From positions 310,001-374,000 of the forward strand of contig SCVN01000016.1 in NCBI GenBank assembly GCA_004296885.1: 64,000 bases of DNA, written 5' to 3'. A model generated the notes under the pieces. That model was given only the letters and a program-made list of their open reading frames with translations. It did not search any database and was not told the DNA's origin. Shown in pieces: positions 1,560 through 64,000 of the stretch. The position numbers were made by a program, and so were the translations under genes. Positions within the stretch are counted from its first letter, which is position 1, and every line of letters begins with the position of its first letter. This DNA is from Nitrospirota bacterium (GTDB lineage Bacteria; Nitrospirota; Nitrospiria; Nitrospirales; Nitrospiraceae).

Positions 1560-3454
1560 ACCGGCAGCCGCTGGACAGCGGCTTGCTGGAAAGCATGACC
1601 CGCTCGCTGGCCCACCGGGGGCCGGACGGTGAAGGCTATGTGCTCCTGGCCCAGGAGGGGCCAGGCAAGCCGATCGCGGTCACGGGCCGGCTCTCGGACT
1701 CCCTCCGGTCCGTCCCGCGCGAATATTCCGTCGGGTTCGGCCACCGGCGCCTGGCCATCCTGGATCGCTCGCCGCTCGGCCATCAGCCCATGTCCTGCGA
1801 GCGGGGAGACCTGTGGCTCACCTACAACGGAGAGATCTACAACTATCTGGAGATCAGGCAGACGTTGCAGCAACGGGGCTGGACCTTCCGGTCCATGAGC
1901 GACGCCGAGGTGCTTCTCTACGCCTATCGGGAATGGGGCGAGGATTGCCTGCACCGCTTCAACGGCATGTTCGCCTTCGCCCTGTGGGATGCGCGTGCAC
2001 AGAAGCTGTTCTGCGCGCGAGACCGATGGGGCATGAAGCCGTTCTATTATCGCGTCACGGCGGACCGGTTGACGTTCGGCTCCGAGATCAAGGCCTTGCT
2101 CCAGGAGTCGCAGGCGGCGCCGGCTGCGAACCAACGGCTGGTCCACGCCTATTTGCTGCTGGGGTTGCAAGACCATACGGACGGGACGATGTTCGAAGGC
2201 GTCCACCAACTCAGGCCCGGCCATGTCTTGACCGTGGAGCGGGGGCGGCTGCGAGTCCGGAAGTGGTGGACCCTGGATACTATGTCCGCCGCGGAGGCGG
2301 TTGACGATGCGGCCGCGGTCCGGACCTTCCAGGACCTGTTTGCCGATGCCGTCCGCCTCCATCTGCGGAGCGATGTGCCGGTGGGCAGCTGTCTGAGCGG
2401 CGGCCTCGATTCCTCGTCCATCGTCTGCACGATGCAGCGCCGGCTTGCCACGAAGCCGGCCAGAACTTTTTCCGCCTGCTTCGACGAGCCCGCTTGCGAC
2501 GAGCGGCCCTATCTGCACGCGGTGGTGGCGCAGACCGGAGTCGAGTCCCTGGAAGTCTTTCCCGACGGACGCCGTCTGTACCGGGACCTACCCCTGGTGC
2601 TCTGGCACCAGGAGGAACCGTTCGGGAGCACCAGCTTTCTGGCCCAGTGGGCGGTCATGCAAGCAGCGGGAGAACAGGGGATCAAGGTGTTGCTGGACGG
2701 GCAGGGCGGCGATGAACTGCTCTGCGGCTATCCGGGTTACTGGGGGTCGTACTTCGGAGATTTGGTGCGGCAAGGGGCGCTGGGCAAGGCCTGGCATGAG
2801 CTACGGGCTTATCGGGCTTCCCAGGGGGGGCCGGCTCCGACCGTGGCGGCCAACATCGCGCGGGCACTCCTTCCGTCCCGGTTGGTGGCCTCGGCCCGCT
2901 CCCGGATGAAAGGCCATGGGACATGGGTCAACCGGGAATTCGCCGCACGCTACAGTCTGGCGACCGACTACGAGGAGCGAGGCGGGACGGCACTGGCGAA
3001 CCACGTCGGCGCCTATCTCGAAACGTACAGCCTCCCGGCGTTGCTGCACCACGAAGACCGGAGTTCCATGGCTTTTTCAGTCGAGGCGCGCCTGCCGTTT
3101 CTTGACGTGCGTCTCGCGGACCAGCTCCTCCGGTGGCCGGCCAGGCTCAAATTGCGGGAGGGGATGAGCAAGGTCATTCTGCGGGCGGCGATGGAGGGGG
3201 TGCTGCCAGAATCCGTCCGGCTGCGGACGGACAAGATGGGTTTTGTGACCCCTCAAGACCGGTGGCTGCGGGAAACCTGGCGCCCGGATGTCGAGGCGCT
3301 GTTCCAGTCGCCGGCCTTTGCGCAGCGGGGTTACTGGGACCCGGTTCGGCTGCGGCAAGCCTATCGCGACTATTGTGCCGGGCGGACGGAATTGGGCAAC
3401 AGCATCTGGCGCTGCCTGTGTCTGGAACTATGGCATCAACGCTTTCTCTCATAA
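1529..3454 (+). CDS. asnB: Asparagine synthetase (glutamine-hydrolysing), polysaccharide-locus type
   Basis: The chosen ATG gives MCGIAG, which places the catalytic Cys at position 2 as the class II glutamine amidotransferase fold requires; a longer frame upstream would bury it. The product is 641 residues. The glutaminase half holds HRGPDGEG and the YNGEIYN signature. The synthetase half has the ATP-pyrophosphatase loop SGGLDSSS at about residue 290. The family makes asparagine from aspartate, ATP and glutamine. Copies inside glycan clusters often amidate a sugar acid or another substrate, so the true substrate is uncertain. It overlaps both neighbouring glycosyltransferases (31 bp upstream, 25 bp downstream), so it is made together with the polysaccharide enzymes. 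Confidence 0.88.
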   Translation: MCGIAGIVQLNRQPLDSGLLESMTRSLAHRGPDGEGYVLLAQEGPGKPIAVTGRLSDSLRSVPREYSVGFGHRRLAILDRSPLGHQPMSCERGDLWLTYNGEIYNYLEIRQTLQQRGWTFRSMSDAEVLLYAYREWGEDCLHRFNGMFAFALWDARAQKLFCARDRWGMKPFYYRVTADRLTFGSEIKALLQESQAAPAANQRLVHAYLLLGLQDHTDGTMFEGVHQLRPGHVLTVERGRLRVRKWWTLDTMSAAEAVDDAAAVRTFQDLFADAVRLHLRSDVPVGSCLSGGLDSSSIVCTMQRRLATKPARTFSACFDEPACDERPYLHAVVAQTGVESLEVFPDGRRLYRDLPLVLWHQEEPFGSTSFLAQWAVMQAAGEQGIKVLLDGQGGDELLCGYPGYWGSYFGDLVRQGALGKAWHELRAYRASQGGPAPTVAANIARALLPSRLVASARSRMKGHGTWVNREFAARYSLATDYEERGGTALANHVGAYLETYSLPALLHHEDRSSMAFSVEARLPFLDVRLADQLLRWPARLKLREGMSKVILRAAMEGVLPESVRLRTDKMGFVTPQDRWLRETWRPDVEALFQSPAFAQRGYWDPVRLRQAYRDYCAGRTELGNSIWRCLCLELWHQRFLS

Positions 3455-4671
3455 CCGCGAACGAGCCGCCTGCGGCCGGGGTCGGCGATCGACGCCGGTC
3501 ACCCGACGAGGCGCAGGGCCGAGCCCGTCTCCGGCTGCTGCTGCTGACCGTCGGCCTCGGCATCGGGGGGACGGAAGAGCAGATCAAGGAACTCGCCTTG
3601 CGGCTGGACCGGCGGCGGTACGACGTCACGGTCTGCGCGCTCAAAGGACGGGGGGTCATTGCAAACGAGTTGATCGCGCAGGGGGTCCCTGTGGTGCTCC
3701 TGGAGGGGAAGGCGAAGGGCGACGCGCGCGTGCTCTTCCGGTTGTATCGGCTCATCCAGACCCTGCGCCCGGACATCGTCCACGCCTTTCTCGGCCAGGC
3801 CAACCTCGGCGCGGCGCTGGTCGGCCGACTGCTCGCCGAGCCGATCGTCGTCTGGTCCTATCGGGACCTGGATGTCTGGAGAAAGGGCTTGCACTGGATG
3901 CTGGACCGCTGGGCCGTCCGTCGGGTCGCAGCCGTGACTTGTTGTTCGGATTCGGTCCGCCGCTATGTCTCGCAGCACATGCGACTGCCGCCGGAGCGCA
4001 TCACGACCATTCACAACGGGGTGGATCGGGCCCGGTTCAGGGCGCCATCGCCGATGGGGCGGGCGCAACTCGGCCTGCGGGATCATCTGCCGGTGGTCGG
4101 GACCGTCTGCCGCCTGGATGAACCGAAGAAGGGCCTGGCGGTTCTGCTGCGGGCCATGCGCCTCTCAGCCGACCGGGGGGATGCGCCGGCCTGGCAATTG
4201 CTGATCGTGGGAGAAGGGCCGGCCAGAGAGGGGCTCGAACGACTGAGCGCAAGCTTGGGCCTGGCCGAGCGTGTCGTCTTTGCCGGTCCGCGGCGTGACG
4301 TGGCGGCGGTCCTTCCGCTCATGGATTTGTTTGTCTGTCCTTCGCTCTATGAAGGATTTGGTATCGCGATTGTGGAAGCGATGATGGCCGGCTTGCCGGT
4401 CGTCGCCAGTTCGGTGGGGGGGATCATGGAAATTGTCCGGTCCGGCGACACGGGTCTTCTTGTCCCGCCCGGCGATCCGGCCGCTTTGGCGGAAGCCATT
4501 CAGGAGGTGCTCGGTCACCCTGACAAGGCTGCTTGGTTCGGACGACAGGGACGACAGTCGGCGGAAGCGGCTTTTTCCGTGGAGACCATGGTCGAGCGCC
4601 ACGGAGCCCTCTATGAATCCCTCGTAGAGGCGGCCGGACCGTGCAGGGTGATGCAACAGGAGAAACGCTGA
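3430..4671 (+). CDS. Glycosyltransferase family 4
   Basis: The 413-residue product starts at the ATG inside the end of asnB (MASTLS). A longer open frame exists upstream but only as the shifted reading of asnB. After about 35 variable residues the GT-B acceptor domain begins (LLLTVGLGIGGTEEQIKELA, a typical GT4 opening). The donor domain has HNGVDRARF, GEGPAREGLERL and YEGFGIAIVEAMMAGLPVV, the last being the E-x7-E catalytic and nucleotide-sugar motif. It probably adds one sugar of the repeat unit. It is followed after 4 bp by the lipid-carrier sugar-phosphate transferase. Substrate unknown. Confidence 0.87.
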   Translation: MASTLSLITANEPPAAGVGDRRRSPDEAQGRARLRLLLLTVGLGIGGTEEQIKELALRLDRRRYDVTVCALKGRGVIANELIAQGVPVVLLEGKAKGDARVLFRLYRLIQTLRPDIVHAFLGQANLGAALVGRLLAEPIVVWSYRDLDVWRKGLHWMLDRWAVRRVAAVTCCSDSVRRYVSQHMRLPPERITTIHNGVDRARFRAPSPMGRAQLGLRDHLPVVGTVCRLDEPKKGLAVLLRAMRLSADRGDAPAWQLLIVGEGPAREGLERLSASLGLAERVVFAGPRRDVAAVLPLMDLFVCPSLYEGFGIAIVEAMMAGLPVVASSVGGIMEIVRSGDTGLLVPPGDPAALAEAIQEVLGHPDKAAWFGRQGRQSAEAAFSVETMVERHGALYESLVEAAGPCRVMQQEKR

Positions 4672-11458: not shown

Positions 11459-12042
11459 CGTGGCTTCAGTGTAGTAGGCAGTTGAGAAGGAGTCAAGAAG
11501 CTTGCAGACAATGCCTCGCTGGAAAAGGGCGGGAGTAGACTGGCCCGTTGCGTCGCATTTCCGCCTGCCGAACAGTCCAATCCAGTCTTGGCTGGCGAAG
11601 GGAGAGGGCGGGTGTGCTGAGGCGTCTTGCCTCCGCACCTCCGGAGCAAAGATACCGCGGCTTGGGAAGGTCGGGCAGCGTCGGCTTCGCCACGATGCGA
11701 TGGTGCCATTGTGCCGCCGTCACCATGCTACTGGCTGCTCGCCTCATCGGAATAGAAGAACGGCGAGCGGCGTCCTCTCCGTCTTCCTGTGTCCCGATTC
11801 TCGCCGTGGCGAAAGCCTCCTGCCCATCTCTTCCATCCGCGTCCGAAGAGAGAGGGTGTCGGGGACAGGTCGCCAATGGACCTGTCCCCGATTTGCTGAA
11901 TTCTCAGCCCCGTGTATCGATAGCGTTGACAAGTCCATAGAACAAAATAAGAATGACTCGTCAATTGATGGTCGGCATCGACAAGGTATGTCGATCAGCA
12001 TACTCGTACGCTAGCGCCATCAGAACTCCATCGGTGGGCATA
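11459..12042. other. 584-bp stretch without a convincing gene
   Basis: Short open frames exist on both strands here, but none has a recognisable motif, a good ribosome site and an end-to-end plausible composition. The stretch holds one REP-like palindrome (separate entry) and then turns AT-rich as it enters the nuclease gene. It may be the scar of an insertion or the control region of the toxin-antitoxin pair and the nuclease. Confidence 0.5.
11860..11890. repeat. REP-like palindrome, copy 1
   Basis: CGGGGACAGGTC and GACCTGTCCCCG form a perfect 12-bp inverted repeat around a 7-base loop. The same core (CGGGGACAGG/CCTGTCCCCG) recurs on the other side of the AT-rich nuclease gene. This kind of short GC-rich palindrome is typical of REP sequences that are moved or bound by REP-associated transposases, but no such transposase is in the window. 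Confidence 0.65.
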
Positions 12043-51371: not shown

Positions 51372-51481
51372 TGCCGGGGAGTATACCGGCGTGAATGATT
51401 GGTGTACAGCGAAGCCGTTTTTCAGGATTCGGTGGGATGGAGCGGTCCGCTCACTCGCACGGGGTGAGCGGACCGTCGCGC

Positions 51482-52927
51482 TCAATAGGCGAAGTCGAAA
51501 CCGATAAGAATCGTCTGGCCGACCTGATCCCCGCCGTTTACACTCACTCCCTGCGATCGAAACTGGTTGTATTCCGCATGCCAGGCGATATCGGTGCGGG
51601 CCGATTGGTGGATGTAGTACCGCGCCATGGCGGTATGGGAATCCACGTCGTTGTAGCCTTTAGCGAAGGTGGGATCGCCTTGGCGGATATTCCTGATCAT
51701 GTCGTACCGGTAGGTCAGCAGCCAATTGGGCATGTCCAGAATCGACAAGATCGTGGGATACCAATCCAGTTGGACGAACGCGCCGTACCAGCTGGCGTTT
51801 TGCGGGTCGGCGATCCCCTGCGAGGCGAAGAGATATTTCGTGTCGCGTCCGTGCATGACAGCGCCGAAGAGATTCCACTGGTTGTCGAAGGTTGTGCTCA
51901 CATCGACGCCGAGGCGGCTGAAAGGCTGCCCTCCCGATGCAACCCCGCGGCAATCCGGGCAGAGGGGGTTCACCGTGGTGGGGGCGGTGCCGTAGGCCGC
52001 AAAGAGGCCGAGCCGATGCCCTGTCACAATCCCGTACCCGCCGAAGGATTGCGTGACATGTCCATAGAAGTTCGTGCCCCGCCCGCCGCCCACGTTGCCG
52101 ATATTGAGGTTGCTGTTGGAAATGGCGGCCAGTGAGTAACGGAAATAACCGCCGCCCGGCGTCGGAGAGATGCCGGCCAGTTCCAGCCCCGGCTGGTTGG
52201 CGCCGAGCTGAAAATCGTTCGGATTGCCGTACGTCGTGTAGCGGGAGGCCACCAGATTGCTCAAGACGGCCGAGTAGGGCGTGCCGGCTTGATAGTGGTA
52301 CATGACGAAGGGCGTATTGAGGGTCTGGCTCCGTTTTTCGCTGAACGGCACATCCAGTTCAAATTTCCCCACCTTGAGGTTCATGAAGTAGGAATCGCTG
52401 CTCCCTCCCAGGAACCGTTGGATGTTGTTCATGCGAATGAAACCGGATTCGAGATCGCTCTGGTTGTTGGCTCTGGTTCCGAATCCTGCGCTGGCCAGCC
52501 CCGGAGTAAACACGAGGCCGAAACTGATGTCTCGATGGAGAATCCCAAAGCTGAGAATGTCCAGGCCGGTGAAGCCGAAGCTGCCGGTTTCCACTCCGCC
52601 TCCGTCCACGCGGAGGCTGGCGCTCTGATAGCCGACCGTCGTTCTGAACGACACAGGCCAGTACCCCATCGAAATACCTTCGAAGGTCGGGAGGTCGTTA
52701 TCCGATCCAAGCTGATAGCCGTGATCGCGAAAGAGATTCCCGAAATCGTTCAATTTGGGAAAGCCGGGCACGTGGCAGGTGTTGCACGCGAAGTTGTACT
52801 TGCGCGCGAAGGCGGGGATGGCTCCGACCTCTCGTGCTTGCCAGGTCACTTCGTAACCCATCACGGCGAGCAGGCCGATAATCACGAGGAATGCGCCGCG
52901 CGGGACTTTGGGACGCTGTCCGGACAT
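51482..52927 (-). CDS. Outer-membrane beta-barrel protein with N-terminal CxxCH haem motif
   Basis: AAAGGAG precedes this start. The 481-residue product has an N-terminal hydrophobic segment (FLVIIGLLAVMGYEVTW), then FARKYNFACNTCHVPGFPK, with a c-type haem motif (Cys48, Cys51, His52). The rest alternates in a beta-barrel pattern rich in Gly, Ser, Asn and aromatic residues and ends in IGFDFAY, a terminal aromatic typical of outer-membrane proteins. Such porin-cytochrome-like proteins may move electrons through the outer membrane. Function here is not proven. The gene is read from a Fur-like promoter region with a leader terminator (separate entries). Confidence 0.78.
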   Translation of the reverse strand: MSGQRPKVPRGAFLVIIGLLAVMGYEVTWQAREVGAIPAFARKYNFACNTCHVPGFPKLNDFGNLFRDHGYQLGSDNDLPTFEGISMGYWPVSFRTTVGYQSASLRVDGGGVETGSFGFTGLDILSFGILHRDISFGLVFTPGLASAGFGTRANNQSDLESGFIRMNNIQRFLGGSSDSYFMNLKVGKFELDVPFSEKRSQTLNTPFVMYHYQAGTPYSAVLSNLVASRYTTYGNPNDFQLGANQPGLELAGISPTPGGGYFRYSLAAISNSNLNIGNVGGGRGTNFYGHVTQSFGGYGIVTGHRLGLFAAYGTAPTTVNPLCPDCRGVASGGQPFSRLGVDVSTTFDNQWNLFGAVMHGRDTKYLFASQGIADPQNASWYGAFVQLDWYPTILSILDMPNWLLTYRYDMIRNIRQGDPTFAKGYNDVDSHTAMARYYIHQSARTDIAWHAEYNQFRSQGVSVNGGDQVGQTILIGFDFAY

Positions 52928-52952
52928 GGGGGCTCCTTTCTGTTGGACGCAC

Positions 52953-52990
52953 AAAAAAAGCCCCAGGCGACGTGAAGGTCGCCTGGGGCT
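52953..52990 (-). terminator. Rho-independent terminator inside the leader of the haem-barrel gene
   Basis: A perfect 13-bp stem (AGCCCCAGGCGAC, 52959-52971, with its complement at 52978-52990) and a six-base loop are followed on the minus strand by seven T (A-run at 52953-52959). It is a strong minus-strand terminator, placed between the promoter at 53048-53074 and the ribosome site of the gene at 52927. It can end a short RNA or attenuate the gene. Confidence 0.8.
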
Positions 52991-53041
52991 CTGGGATCGA
53001 TCCGCTGGCCGATGGTTATTTAGTCGATGATATTGATTTCA
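52953..53041 (-). ncRNA. Candidate Fur-controlled small RNA or attenuated leader
   Basis: A transcript from the promoter below should start near 53041 and end in the terminator at about 52953, giving about 89 nt. That is close to RyhB-class sRNAs, which are repressed by Fur. The alternative is a leader whose terminator is bypassed under some condition to allow expression of the haem-barrel protein. No known riboswitch motif was found. Confidence 0.45.
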
Positions 53042-53074
53042 AGTATCATTATCATAATAGAAATTTCCAGTCAA
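53035..53074 (-). promoter_or_regulatory. Promoter overlapped by a Fur-box-like sequence
   Basis: On the minus strand: TTGACT (53069-53074), 15 bases, GATAAT (53048-53053). Overlapping it, GATTTCAAGTATCATTATC (53035-53053, plus strand) agrees with the 19-base Fur consensus at 13 positions, with a perfect ATCATTATC half. A bound Fur dimer would cover the -10 box and start site. The stretch is also the AT-richest in the neighbourhood. Confidence 0.6.
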
Positions 53075-53156
53075 GCCCCGGGCCTGCAGGCTGGATTGTG
53101 ATTGGTGCACCGCGTTGCGCGATCCGTGTACAATAAACCTCCACAGGAGGGCGATC

Positions 53157-53795
53157 GTGGGTGATTTGATCCGCAAAACTTTTCCCGTGCCCCCGCTGGG
53201 GTGCAACTGCTCGATCCTGGGCGATCCGGTCACCAAGCAGGCCATCGTGGTGGACCCGGGTGGCGCCCACGAGCAGATTCTCCAGATGGTCGAGGCCATG
53301 GGGTTGAGGGTGGTCAGCATCCTGCACACCCATGCCCATTTCGACCACTTTCTGGCCTCCGGCGAGATGAAGCGGGCGACGGGCGCAACCTTATGCCTGC
53401 ATCAGGACGACCTGCCCTTGTGGGAGCTCTTGGAGACGCAATGCCGCCTGTTCGGTGTGCCCTACCGGCCGGTGCCCTTGCCCGATTACTGGATCAAGGA
53501 CGAAGAAAAAATTCTCCTGGGCGGGATCGAAGGTTTGGCGCTCCATACGCCGGGGCACACGCCCGGCTCCATGTGTTTTCATTTCGAACAGGAGCAGTTG
53601 GTCCTGGCGGGTGACACGCTCTTTCGCGGCGGCATCGGACGGACCGATCTCTGGGGCGGCGATTACGACGCGATCGAACAGTCCATCCGGGAGCGGCTCT
53701 ATGCGCTGGAGGAAGAGACCCGCGTCATCACCGGCCACGGGCCGGAAACTCGGATCGGGATCGAGCGGGAGTCCAATCCCTTTGTGCGAGGATAG
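53157..53795 (+). CDS. Metallo-beta-lactamase-fold hydrolase (glyoxalase II-like)
   Basis: A GTG start is chosen because AGGAGG sits just ahead of it; the frame continues upstream without a better site. The 212-residue protein has the metal-binding HTHAHFDHF motif, then LALHTPGHTPGSMCF, LAGDTLFRGGIGRTD and the final His in VITGHGPETRIG. This is the compact glyoxalase II-like group, which hydrolyses thioesters or related bonds with two metal ions in the cytoplasm. It is divergent from the haem-barrel gene. Substrate not determinable. Confidence 0.9.
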   Translation: MGDLIRKTFPVPPLGCNCSILGDPVTKQAIVVDPGGAHEQILQMVEAMGLRVVSILHTHAHFDHFLASGEMKRATGATLCLHQDDLPLWELLETQCRLFGVPYRPVPLPDYWIKDEEKILLGGIEGLALHTPGHTPGSMCFHFEQEQLVLAGDTLFRGGIGRTDLWGGDYDAIEQSIRERLYALEEETRVITGHGPETRIGIERESNPFVRG

Positions 53796-63068: not shown

Positions 63069-64000
63069 CGCTCCAAATGGAACGGGACGTCGGTGAGAAT
63101 GACCCGCTCTTTGAACAGCAGCGCCGCCTTCAGCATGAGCGCCCGCTGGTTGTGCAGGATGTTCTGCCACCATTTGGCCGGCAGGATTTCGGGAATGACC
63201 ACCGTCACCCAGCCGTCCGGGTCCTTGTCGAGCAAGTCCTCGATGTACTCCAGCAGCGATCGCATCACCGAGCGGTAGGGAGAATGCAGGAGGATCAGCG
63301 GGACCCCGCAGCCCCATTGGGCCCATTTGATCTGGGTCAGGGCGGTTTCTTCCTTGTCCACGTTGACCATCACGGCGCGGATGTCTCCGGACCGGCCGCG
63401 CGCATAGTCCACGGCCCGAACGACCGCGCGATTCACCCCGCTGATCGGGATGATCACGGTGTTGCGGCGGGGCGGCGGGGGCCGGTGGTCCCGCTCCAGC
63501 GCCACCTGTTCGTCCACCGCGATGTAGTGGGCGTGGATGGCCCGGAACCACATGATGATCAGCGGCAGCAGGGCGATGACGATCCAGGCCCCGTGCAGGA
63601 ACTTCGTGCTGGCGATGATCAGGGTGGCGATGCCGGTCGCGACGGCGCCGATCCCGTTCACGATCAGTTTCTGGCGCCAGCCCGGGCCTCCCTTCACCAG
63701 CCAGCGCTTGACCATGCCGGCCTGCGAGAAGGTAAAGGAGAGGAAGACGCCGACGGCGTAAAGAGGAATCAATGCGTGCGTGTCTCCGTTGAACAGGATG
63801 ATCAGGAGGCAGGAGAAGAGCCCCAGGATGACGATCCCGTTCGAGAAGACCAGCCGGTCGCCCATGATCTGCATCTGGTGCGGCATGTAACTGTCCTTGG
63901 CGAGCAGGGAGGCGAGGCGCGGGAAGCCCGCGAAGCTGCTGTTGGCCGCCAGGATGAGGATCATCATGGTCGAGGCCTGGACCAGGTAGTAGAGCGGGCC
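63065..64000 (-). CDS. APC-superfamily transporter, C-terminal part (cut by window edge)
   Basis: The visible 311 residues are open to the window edge, where GPLYYLVQASTMMILILAAN is still membrane helix. SSFAGFPRLASLLAKDSYMP is the typical inner loop of amino-acid or cation permeases of the APC group; several helices follow. The last third is soluble: NTVIIPISGVNRAVVRAVDY and GWVTVVIPEILPAKWWQNIL look like a universal-stress-protein-type domain. Fusion of a permease and such a domain is known in APC transporters. Substrate is not determinable. The Ig/PKD gene overlaps its stop. Confidence 0.75.
   Translation of the reverse strand, partial: GPLYYLVQASTMMILILAANSSFAGFPRLASLLAKDSYMPHQMQIMGDRLVFSNGIVILGLFSCLLIILFNGDTHALIPLYAVGVFLSFTFSQAGMVKRWLVKGGPGWRQKLIVNGIGAVATGIATLIIASTKFLHGAWIVIALLPLIIMWFRAIHAHYIAVDEQVALERDHRPPPPRRNTVIIPISGVNRAVVRAVDYARGRSGDIRAVMVNVDKEETALTQIKWAQWGCGVPLILLHSPYRSVMRSLLEYIEDLLDKDPDGWVTVVIPEILPAKWWQNILHNQRALMLKAALLFKERVILTDVPFHLER

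Follow-up and report, generated by a model that had tools for sequence, protein, structure and literature searches.

The window (the whole 64,000-nucleotide stretch of DNA that was analysed) lies on contig 16 of a 3.26-Mb genome (G000), and the locus under study is a minus-strand gene at 51482–52927 which encodes a protein of 481 amino acids. Its ATG at 52927 is preceded on the same strand by the ribosome-binding site AAAGGAG (52933–52939) and, further upstream, by an intrinsic terminator, a conserved leader and a putative Fur-controlled promoter. The next gene upstream, which encodes a metallo-beta-lactamase-fold hydrolase (53145–53795, plus strand, start approximate), is divergent, so that the hairpin in front of the minus-strand gene does not terminate the transcript of any neighbour. 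The initial annotation, made from the sequence alone, had described a good ribosome site followed by a beta-barrel gene with a CxxCH motif. Both are present, and the barrel gene can now be assigned to the Cyc2 family of fused cytochrome-porins.

Cyc2 proteins are recognised by a single CxxCH motif with AXPXFAR[Q/K][T/Y] before and PXL after it, and by a 16-strand porin resembling OprP and OprO (PMC8406198). The present protein reads AIPAFARKY-NFA-CNTCH-VPGF-PKL, with CNTCH at residues 48–52, and the motif residues are invariant or nearly so in 24 homologues. Its predicted model has 16 strands and finds its best PDB matches in OprP (2o4v) and OprO (4rjw), at a mean pLDDT of 71 and with a poorly modelled haem domain. 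By signature and predicted fold the product is a Cyc2-family cytochrome-porin, sharing with described Cyc2 the single CxxCH signature and the OprP/OprO-like 16-strand porin, but being a Nitrospirales homologue for which Fe(II) oxidation is putative. The named relatives of the gene are from Nitrospira species, including Ca. Nitrospira defluvii, and Cyc2 homologues in Nitrospirales were already known (PMC9040806). A second Cyc2-like paralogue with 54% identity is found in the same genome (G000:C2:52642-54060, L078), without the leader element described below.

In three genomes of the same genus the hydrolase gene directly adjoins the gene for a glycosyltransferase, which in the window comes after cyc2, and a segment of about 1.67 kb (51424–53097, approximate limits) is absent between them. 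Judged from these gene orders, the cyc2 cassette, which comprises operator, leader and gene, is an insertion running roughly from 53097 to 51424. The near-identical direct repeats GTGCACCAATCAC (53110–53098) and GTACACCAATCAT (51407–51395) flank the cassette and are possibly a footprint of insertion. Comparison of the cassette with plasmids gave no match. The nearest cyc2 orthologue (76%, G003) is located elsewhere, behind a cytochrome c gene, and lacks the element. A mobile or repeat origin was also considered for the hairpin in front of cyc2, and was rejected when its sole other match in the genome proved to be its own reverse complement.

The promoter of cyc2 is sigma-70-like (53048–53074, minus strand). 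The base-by-base check placed TTGACT at 53074–53069 and GATAAT at 53053–53048, separated by 15 nt, and it agreed with the initial annotation also in the overlapping 13/19 match to the E. coli Fur consensus, which becomes 14/19 with the other centre base. The -10 box lies within a candidate Fur-type operator (53028–53054, minus strand), the 27-bp imperfect palindrome TGATAATGAT-ACTTGAA-ATCAATATCA, which contains three overlapping 19-mers in a 6-bp register; most leaders of relatives that have a Fur site show the same overlap. A first-order Markov model predicts 0.27 matches of 14/19 by chance per 64 kb, and 21 of 5000 shuffles of this AT-rich stretch reach that level, for which reason resemblance to the E. 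coli consensus is by itself only modest evidence. With up to three mismatches this consensus has exactly one match in the genome, an uninformative one in a convergent intergenic region. Another 14/19 match in the window, at 63953 (GATGAGGATCATCATGGTC), receives no support from the Nitrospira matrix described next.

Since the E. coli consensus is nearly absent from the genome, we sought the group's own operator. The genome encodes three Fur-family proteins (PF01475), one of them directly upstream of an FbpA-like gene for iron ABC transport, and at this fur–fbpA junction the motif TTGAGA-N7-TCAATTTCA is conserved in 28 relatives, right behind a -35/-10 pair. In a position weight matrix (PWM) built from these 28 sites, with the present genome left out, the cyc2 site ranks first in the 64-kb window. 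Its score is reached by 4% of Markov windows and by 25 of 10,000 local shuffles (0.25%), and amounts to 16 bits, against up to 32 bits for the best operators of the relatives. The operator pattern derived from these comparisons has 21 matches in the whole genome, compared with 3 for the reversed pattern. The cyc2 site matches it exactly, which is partly circular, since the pattern covers the fbpA and cyc2 sites and was drawn up after both had been seen. With two mismatches the pattern also matches sites that had no part in its design: upstream of tonB, upstream of a pair of bacterioferritin genes, and at the start of the L123 locus, which carries genes for an AraC regulator, TonB and a TonB receptor. 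The comparative evidence therefore supports the iron-regulator reading of the promoter given in the initial annotation: the cyc2 site fits the operator family that relatives keep at the fur–fbpA junction, and putatively binds Fur.

Between promoter and gene lies an intrinsic terminator (52953–52990, minus strand), the only combination of a strong hairpin and a long T run that a strict scan found in the window. As the initial annotation had noted, its 13-bp stem is perfect (52990–52978 pairs with 52971–52959), and it encloses a 6-nt loop and ends in T7 at 52959–52953. From the T run to the start codon there are only 26 nt, too few to accommodate a second promoter. Elsewhere in the window, hairpin-forming sequence repeats centred on GGGGACAGGYC occur at 11859, 12915 and 12945, about 1 kb apart.

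The terminator hairpin forms the 3' half of a conserved leader element of about 67 nt (52948–53014, minus strand), in which GGCCAGAG, a small covarying hairpin and C[A/G]GAGCCC precede the terminator. The core was spotted at L123, where a Fur-type promoter is followed by a leader sharing it with the cyc2 leader and where a second copy of the element ends just before the AraC start codon. In other Nitrospira the same core stands at the start of the operon to which the cyc2 orthologue belongs, about 1 kb before that gene. Two covariance models were made, R1 from a 13-sequence alignment that included the present genome and R2 from 28 copies without any sequence of it. The cyc2 leader is found with E values of 5.5e-18 (R1) and 1.4e-10 (R2), and R2 also recovers both L123 copies.

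With R1 the element was detected in 139 of 198 related genomes (E <= 0.01). A sample of 396 genomes of the phylum, searched at E <= 1e-6, gave 98 with the element, 93 of them from the same order, 3 from other parts of the class and 2 from elsewhere, which suggests that, over the range searched, it hardly occurs outside Nitrospirales. No covariance model of Rfam 15 matched the leader above its gathering score, and the loose threshold returned one unrelated chance match. A plain DNA search with the leader in the 198 relatives gave nothing convincing, because conservation is limited to structure and short cores. Our literature search found no described RNA motif or iron leader of Nitrospira. Judged from the searches with both models, the site picked out in the initial annotation is one instance of a larger family. 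Relatives were not found to lack both the Fur-like site and the terminator, the outcome which the initial annotation had set against its own proposal; the element is kept before cyc2 operons, and site and element stand together before other iron genes.

In the copies inspected the order of parts is GGCC (CGCC in one), a 3-nt linker, the small hairpin P1, a linker of 1–2 nt, GAGCCC, the rest of the terminator stem, GGGCT and the T's. P1 (GGA-TCGA-TCC, 52994–53003, minus strand in the cyc2 leader) has at least three consecutive pairs in 42 of 46 distinct copies, whereas swapping of 3' halves among the copies gave a mean of 21 and a maximum of 30 (0/2000 in a separate run). In the terminator, pair counts over 52 copies reveal covariation in the upper stem and five invariant pairs at the bottom, the base AGCCC/GGGCT being present in all 52.

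When the first half of the element is folded in isolation, the minimum free energy structure is GGC/GCC around P1 in most of the examples shown. For the cyc2 leader this would pair GGC at 53008–53010 (minus strand) with GCC at 52989–52987, as an antiterminator stem P0. The same GCC belongs to the lowest part of the terminator stem, so that only one of the folds could form at a time. P0 is the step that we infer, from sequence and predicted folding; covariation is silent on it, because P0 never varies. RNAalifold, run on a plain alignment, drew only the terminator, since P1 occurs in two registers. By eye, the cyc2 leader contains no start codon with a ribosome site that would suggest a leader peptide.

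Downstream of the inspected copies are genes for TonB, ExbB, TonB receptors, AraC regulators, a multicopper oxidase and MauG-like peroxidases as well as the head of the cyc2 operon, and the element is often 20–60 nt from the start codon. FecI-like ECF sigma factors also follow some copies, one of them succeeded, by eye, by a FecR-like gene, and small BFD-like ferredoxins follow others (weak match only). HD-domain proteins and, by eye, porin-like proteins, which are not tied to iron, are likewise found behind some copies. The 52 copies, namely those with enough upstream sequence, are top matches together with hand-chosen clusters, so the shares are not unbiased and that of iron genes may be inflated. 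A Fur PWM score of at least 12 is found within 130 nt upstream in 18 of the 52, where shuffles predict 0.2, and most of these Fur-positive copies have TTGACA 15–17 nt before a -10 box which overlaps the operator. The cyc2-operon leaders of other genera have no detectable Fur site, and Fur control of cyc2 is for that reason indicated in the present genome only. Conversely, fbpA, tonB and bacterioferritin in this genome are good Fur targets without the element. At some loci (L003) the hairpin could also end an upstream gene.

Further copies were seen in other settings. At L166 (G000:C8:130000-146000) one copy (3266–3336) stands behind a Fur-type promoter and before a 57-aa zinc-finger-like ORF, and another (3708–3780) directly before an AraC gene, where it heads a locus with ABC, TonB and TonB-receptor genes. 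At L214 and L215 a copy that precedes an HD-domain gene is some 10 kb distant from fur-fbpA, and many relatives have matches at a similar distance from fbpA. The promoter of another Nitrospira cyc2 homologue (L007, upstream of 1964) carries repeated GGGAATnnATTCCC-like palindromes, a different regulator site.

Taken together, these data are probably best accounted for by two layers of control, in which a Fur-controlled promoter feeds a conserved cis-acting transcription attenuator before cyc2. Fur would bind the palindrome over the -10 box and control initiation, presumably repressing when iron is plentiful. The transcript, from its likely start, would begin with the conserved leader of about 90–100 nt, the first half of which (GGC, P1, GCC) may fold into the short antiterminator that shares GCC with the terminator. 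Polymerase would then either stop at the T run, releasing an RNA of about 90 nt, or read on into the gene 26 nt later, and this read-through is proposed to be regulated. Comparison of sequences establishes the family of operators, the conservation of the leader, the covariation of P1 and the link to iron genes.

A sub-version of the cis-attenuator reading, which we regard as possible though rather doubtful, is that read-through depends on a protein, with an RNA-binding or NusG-like factor recognising GGCCAGAG-P1-CAGAG. Conserved flanks around a variable hairpin resemble a protein site, and both the use at multiple operons and the tight restriction to one order would suit such a factor. In LoaP antitermination a factor lets polymerase bypass terminators (PMC12691694); the likeness lies in terminators that can be bypassed via a factor, which in the Nitrospirales case is hypothetical.

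Less probable is that the hairpin acts as a constitutive partial terminator, which lowers the expression of Fur-controlled genes by a fixed factor without any regulation of read-through. The terminator, averaging about -24 kcal/mol, greatly exceeds the proposed antiterminator (about -8) in stability, and P0 is without covariation support, both of which agree with this explanation. Against it, the conserved GGCCAGAG, the covarying P1 and the AGCCC/GGGCT base retained in every copy exceed what a plain terminator needs.

The initial annotation had left two readings of the leader side by side, an attenuator of the gene and an iron-controlled small RNA acting in trans. RyhB and other Fur-repressed small RNAs have a Fur-type promoter and a product of about 90 nt ending in a strong terminator. 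The cyc2 leader agrees with them in promoter, length and terminator, and its terminated form could by analogy be the functional product, pairing with mRNAs of iron proteins. We consider this improbable, because the element, terminator included, occurs in cis ahead of a wide range of genes in many genomes, often close to the start codon, and because Hfq (PF17209) was not found in the genome while the E. coli and B. subtilis controls were positive. Moreover, cyc2 lacks another promoter and therefore needs read-through in any case, the gene following only 26 nt on. The attenuating leader is thus favoured. On the side of the small-RNA reading, such transcripts can derive from leaders, as for UpsM of Rhodobacter sphaeroides, a short RNA from within a long 5' leader; UpsM comes from one locus only, ahead of the dcw cluster (PMC5089854), whereas the Nitrospirales element recurs as a family in front of iron and TonB genes. 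A chance origin, in which a Fur-like site happened to arise in an AT-rich promoter and an insertion left a terminator behind, is very hard to maintain, for although the E. coli consensus match is modest and the cassette is an insertion, the independent R2 match and the order-wide recurrence before iron genes contradict it.

The cis attenuator resembles known attenuator leaders and orphan riboswitch candidates in being a short structured leader before the start codon, with a segment common to an alternative stem and an intrinsic terminator, and in recurring within one regulon. It differs from them in having no Rfam match, in being layered on Fur promoters and in its near confinement to Nitrospirales as searched. 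It is tempting to speculate, and we do so tentatively, that the leader belongs to a new class of RNA that senses metal status, either as a riboswitch for iron or another metal or as the target of an undescribed antiterminator protein. It would then add to Fur another iron switch, acting at the level of RNA, and tie Nitrospirales Cyc2 to iron supply.

Nitrospira are major nitrite oxidisers, and in our literature search neither an iron regulon nor a regulatory RNA turned up as described for them. From the present analysis come a candidate Fur operator of this group and an undescribed family of RNAs, which has a compact conserved core, together with the list of genes that follow it. If read-through answers to a metal, iron control would here include an RNA layer, which is rare. 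The Fur-type promoter of the cyc2 homologue also bears on the question whether Cyc2 serves to gain energy from iron oxidation or is concerned with iron supply; in this the Nitrospirales homologue differs from described Cyc2 (PMC8406198), as its control region suggests a tie to iron supply.
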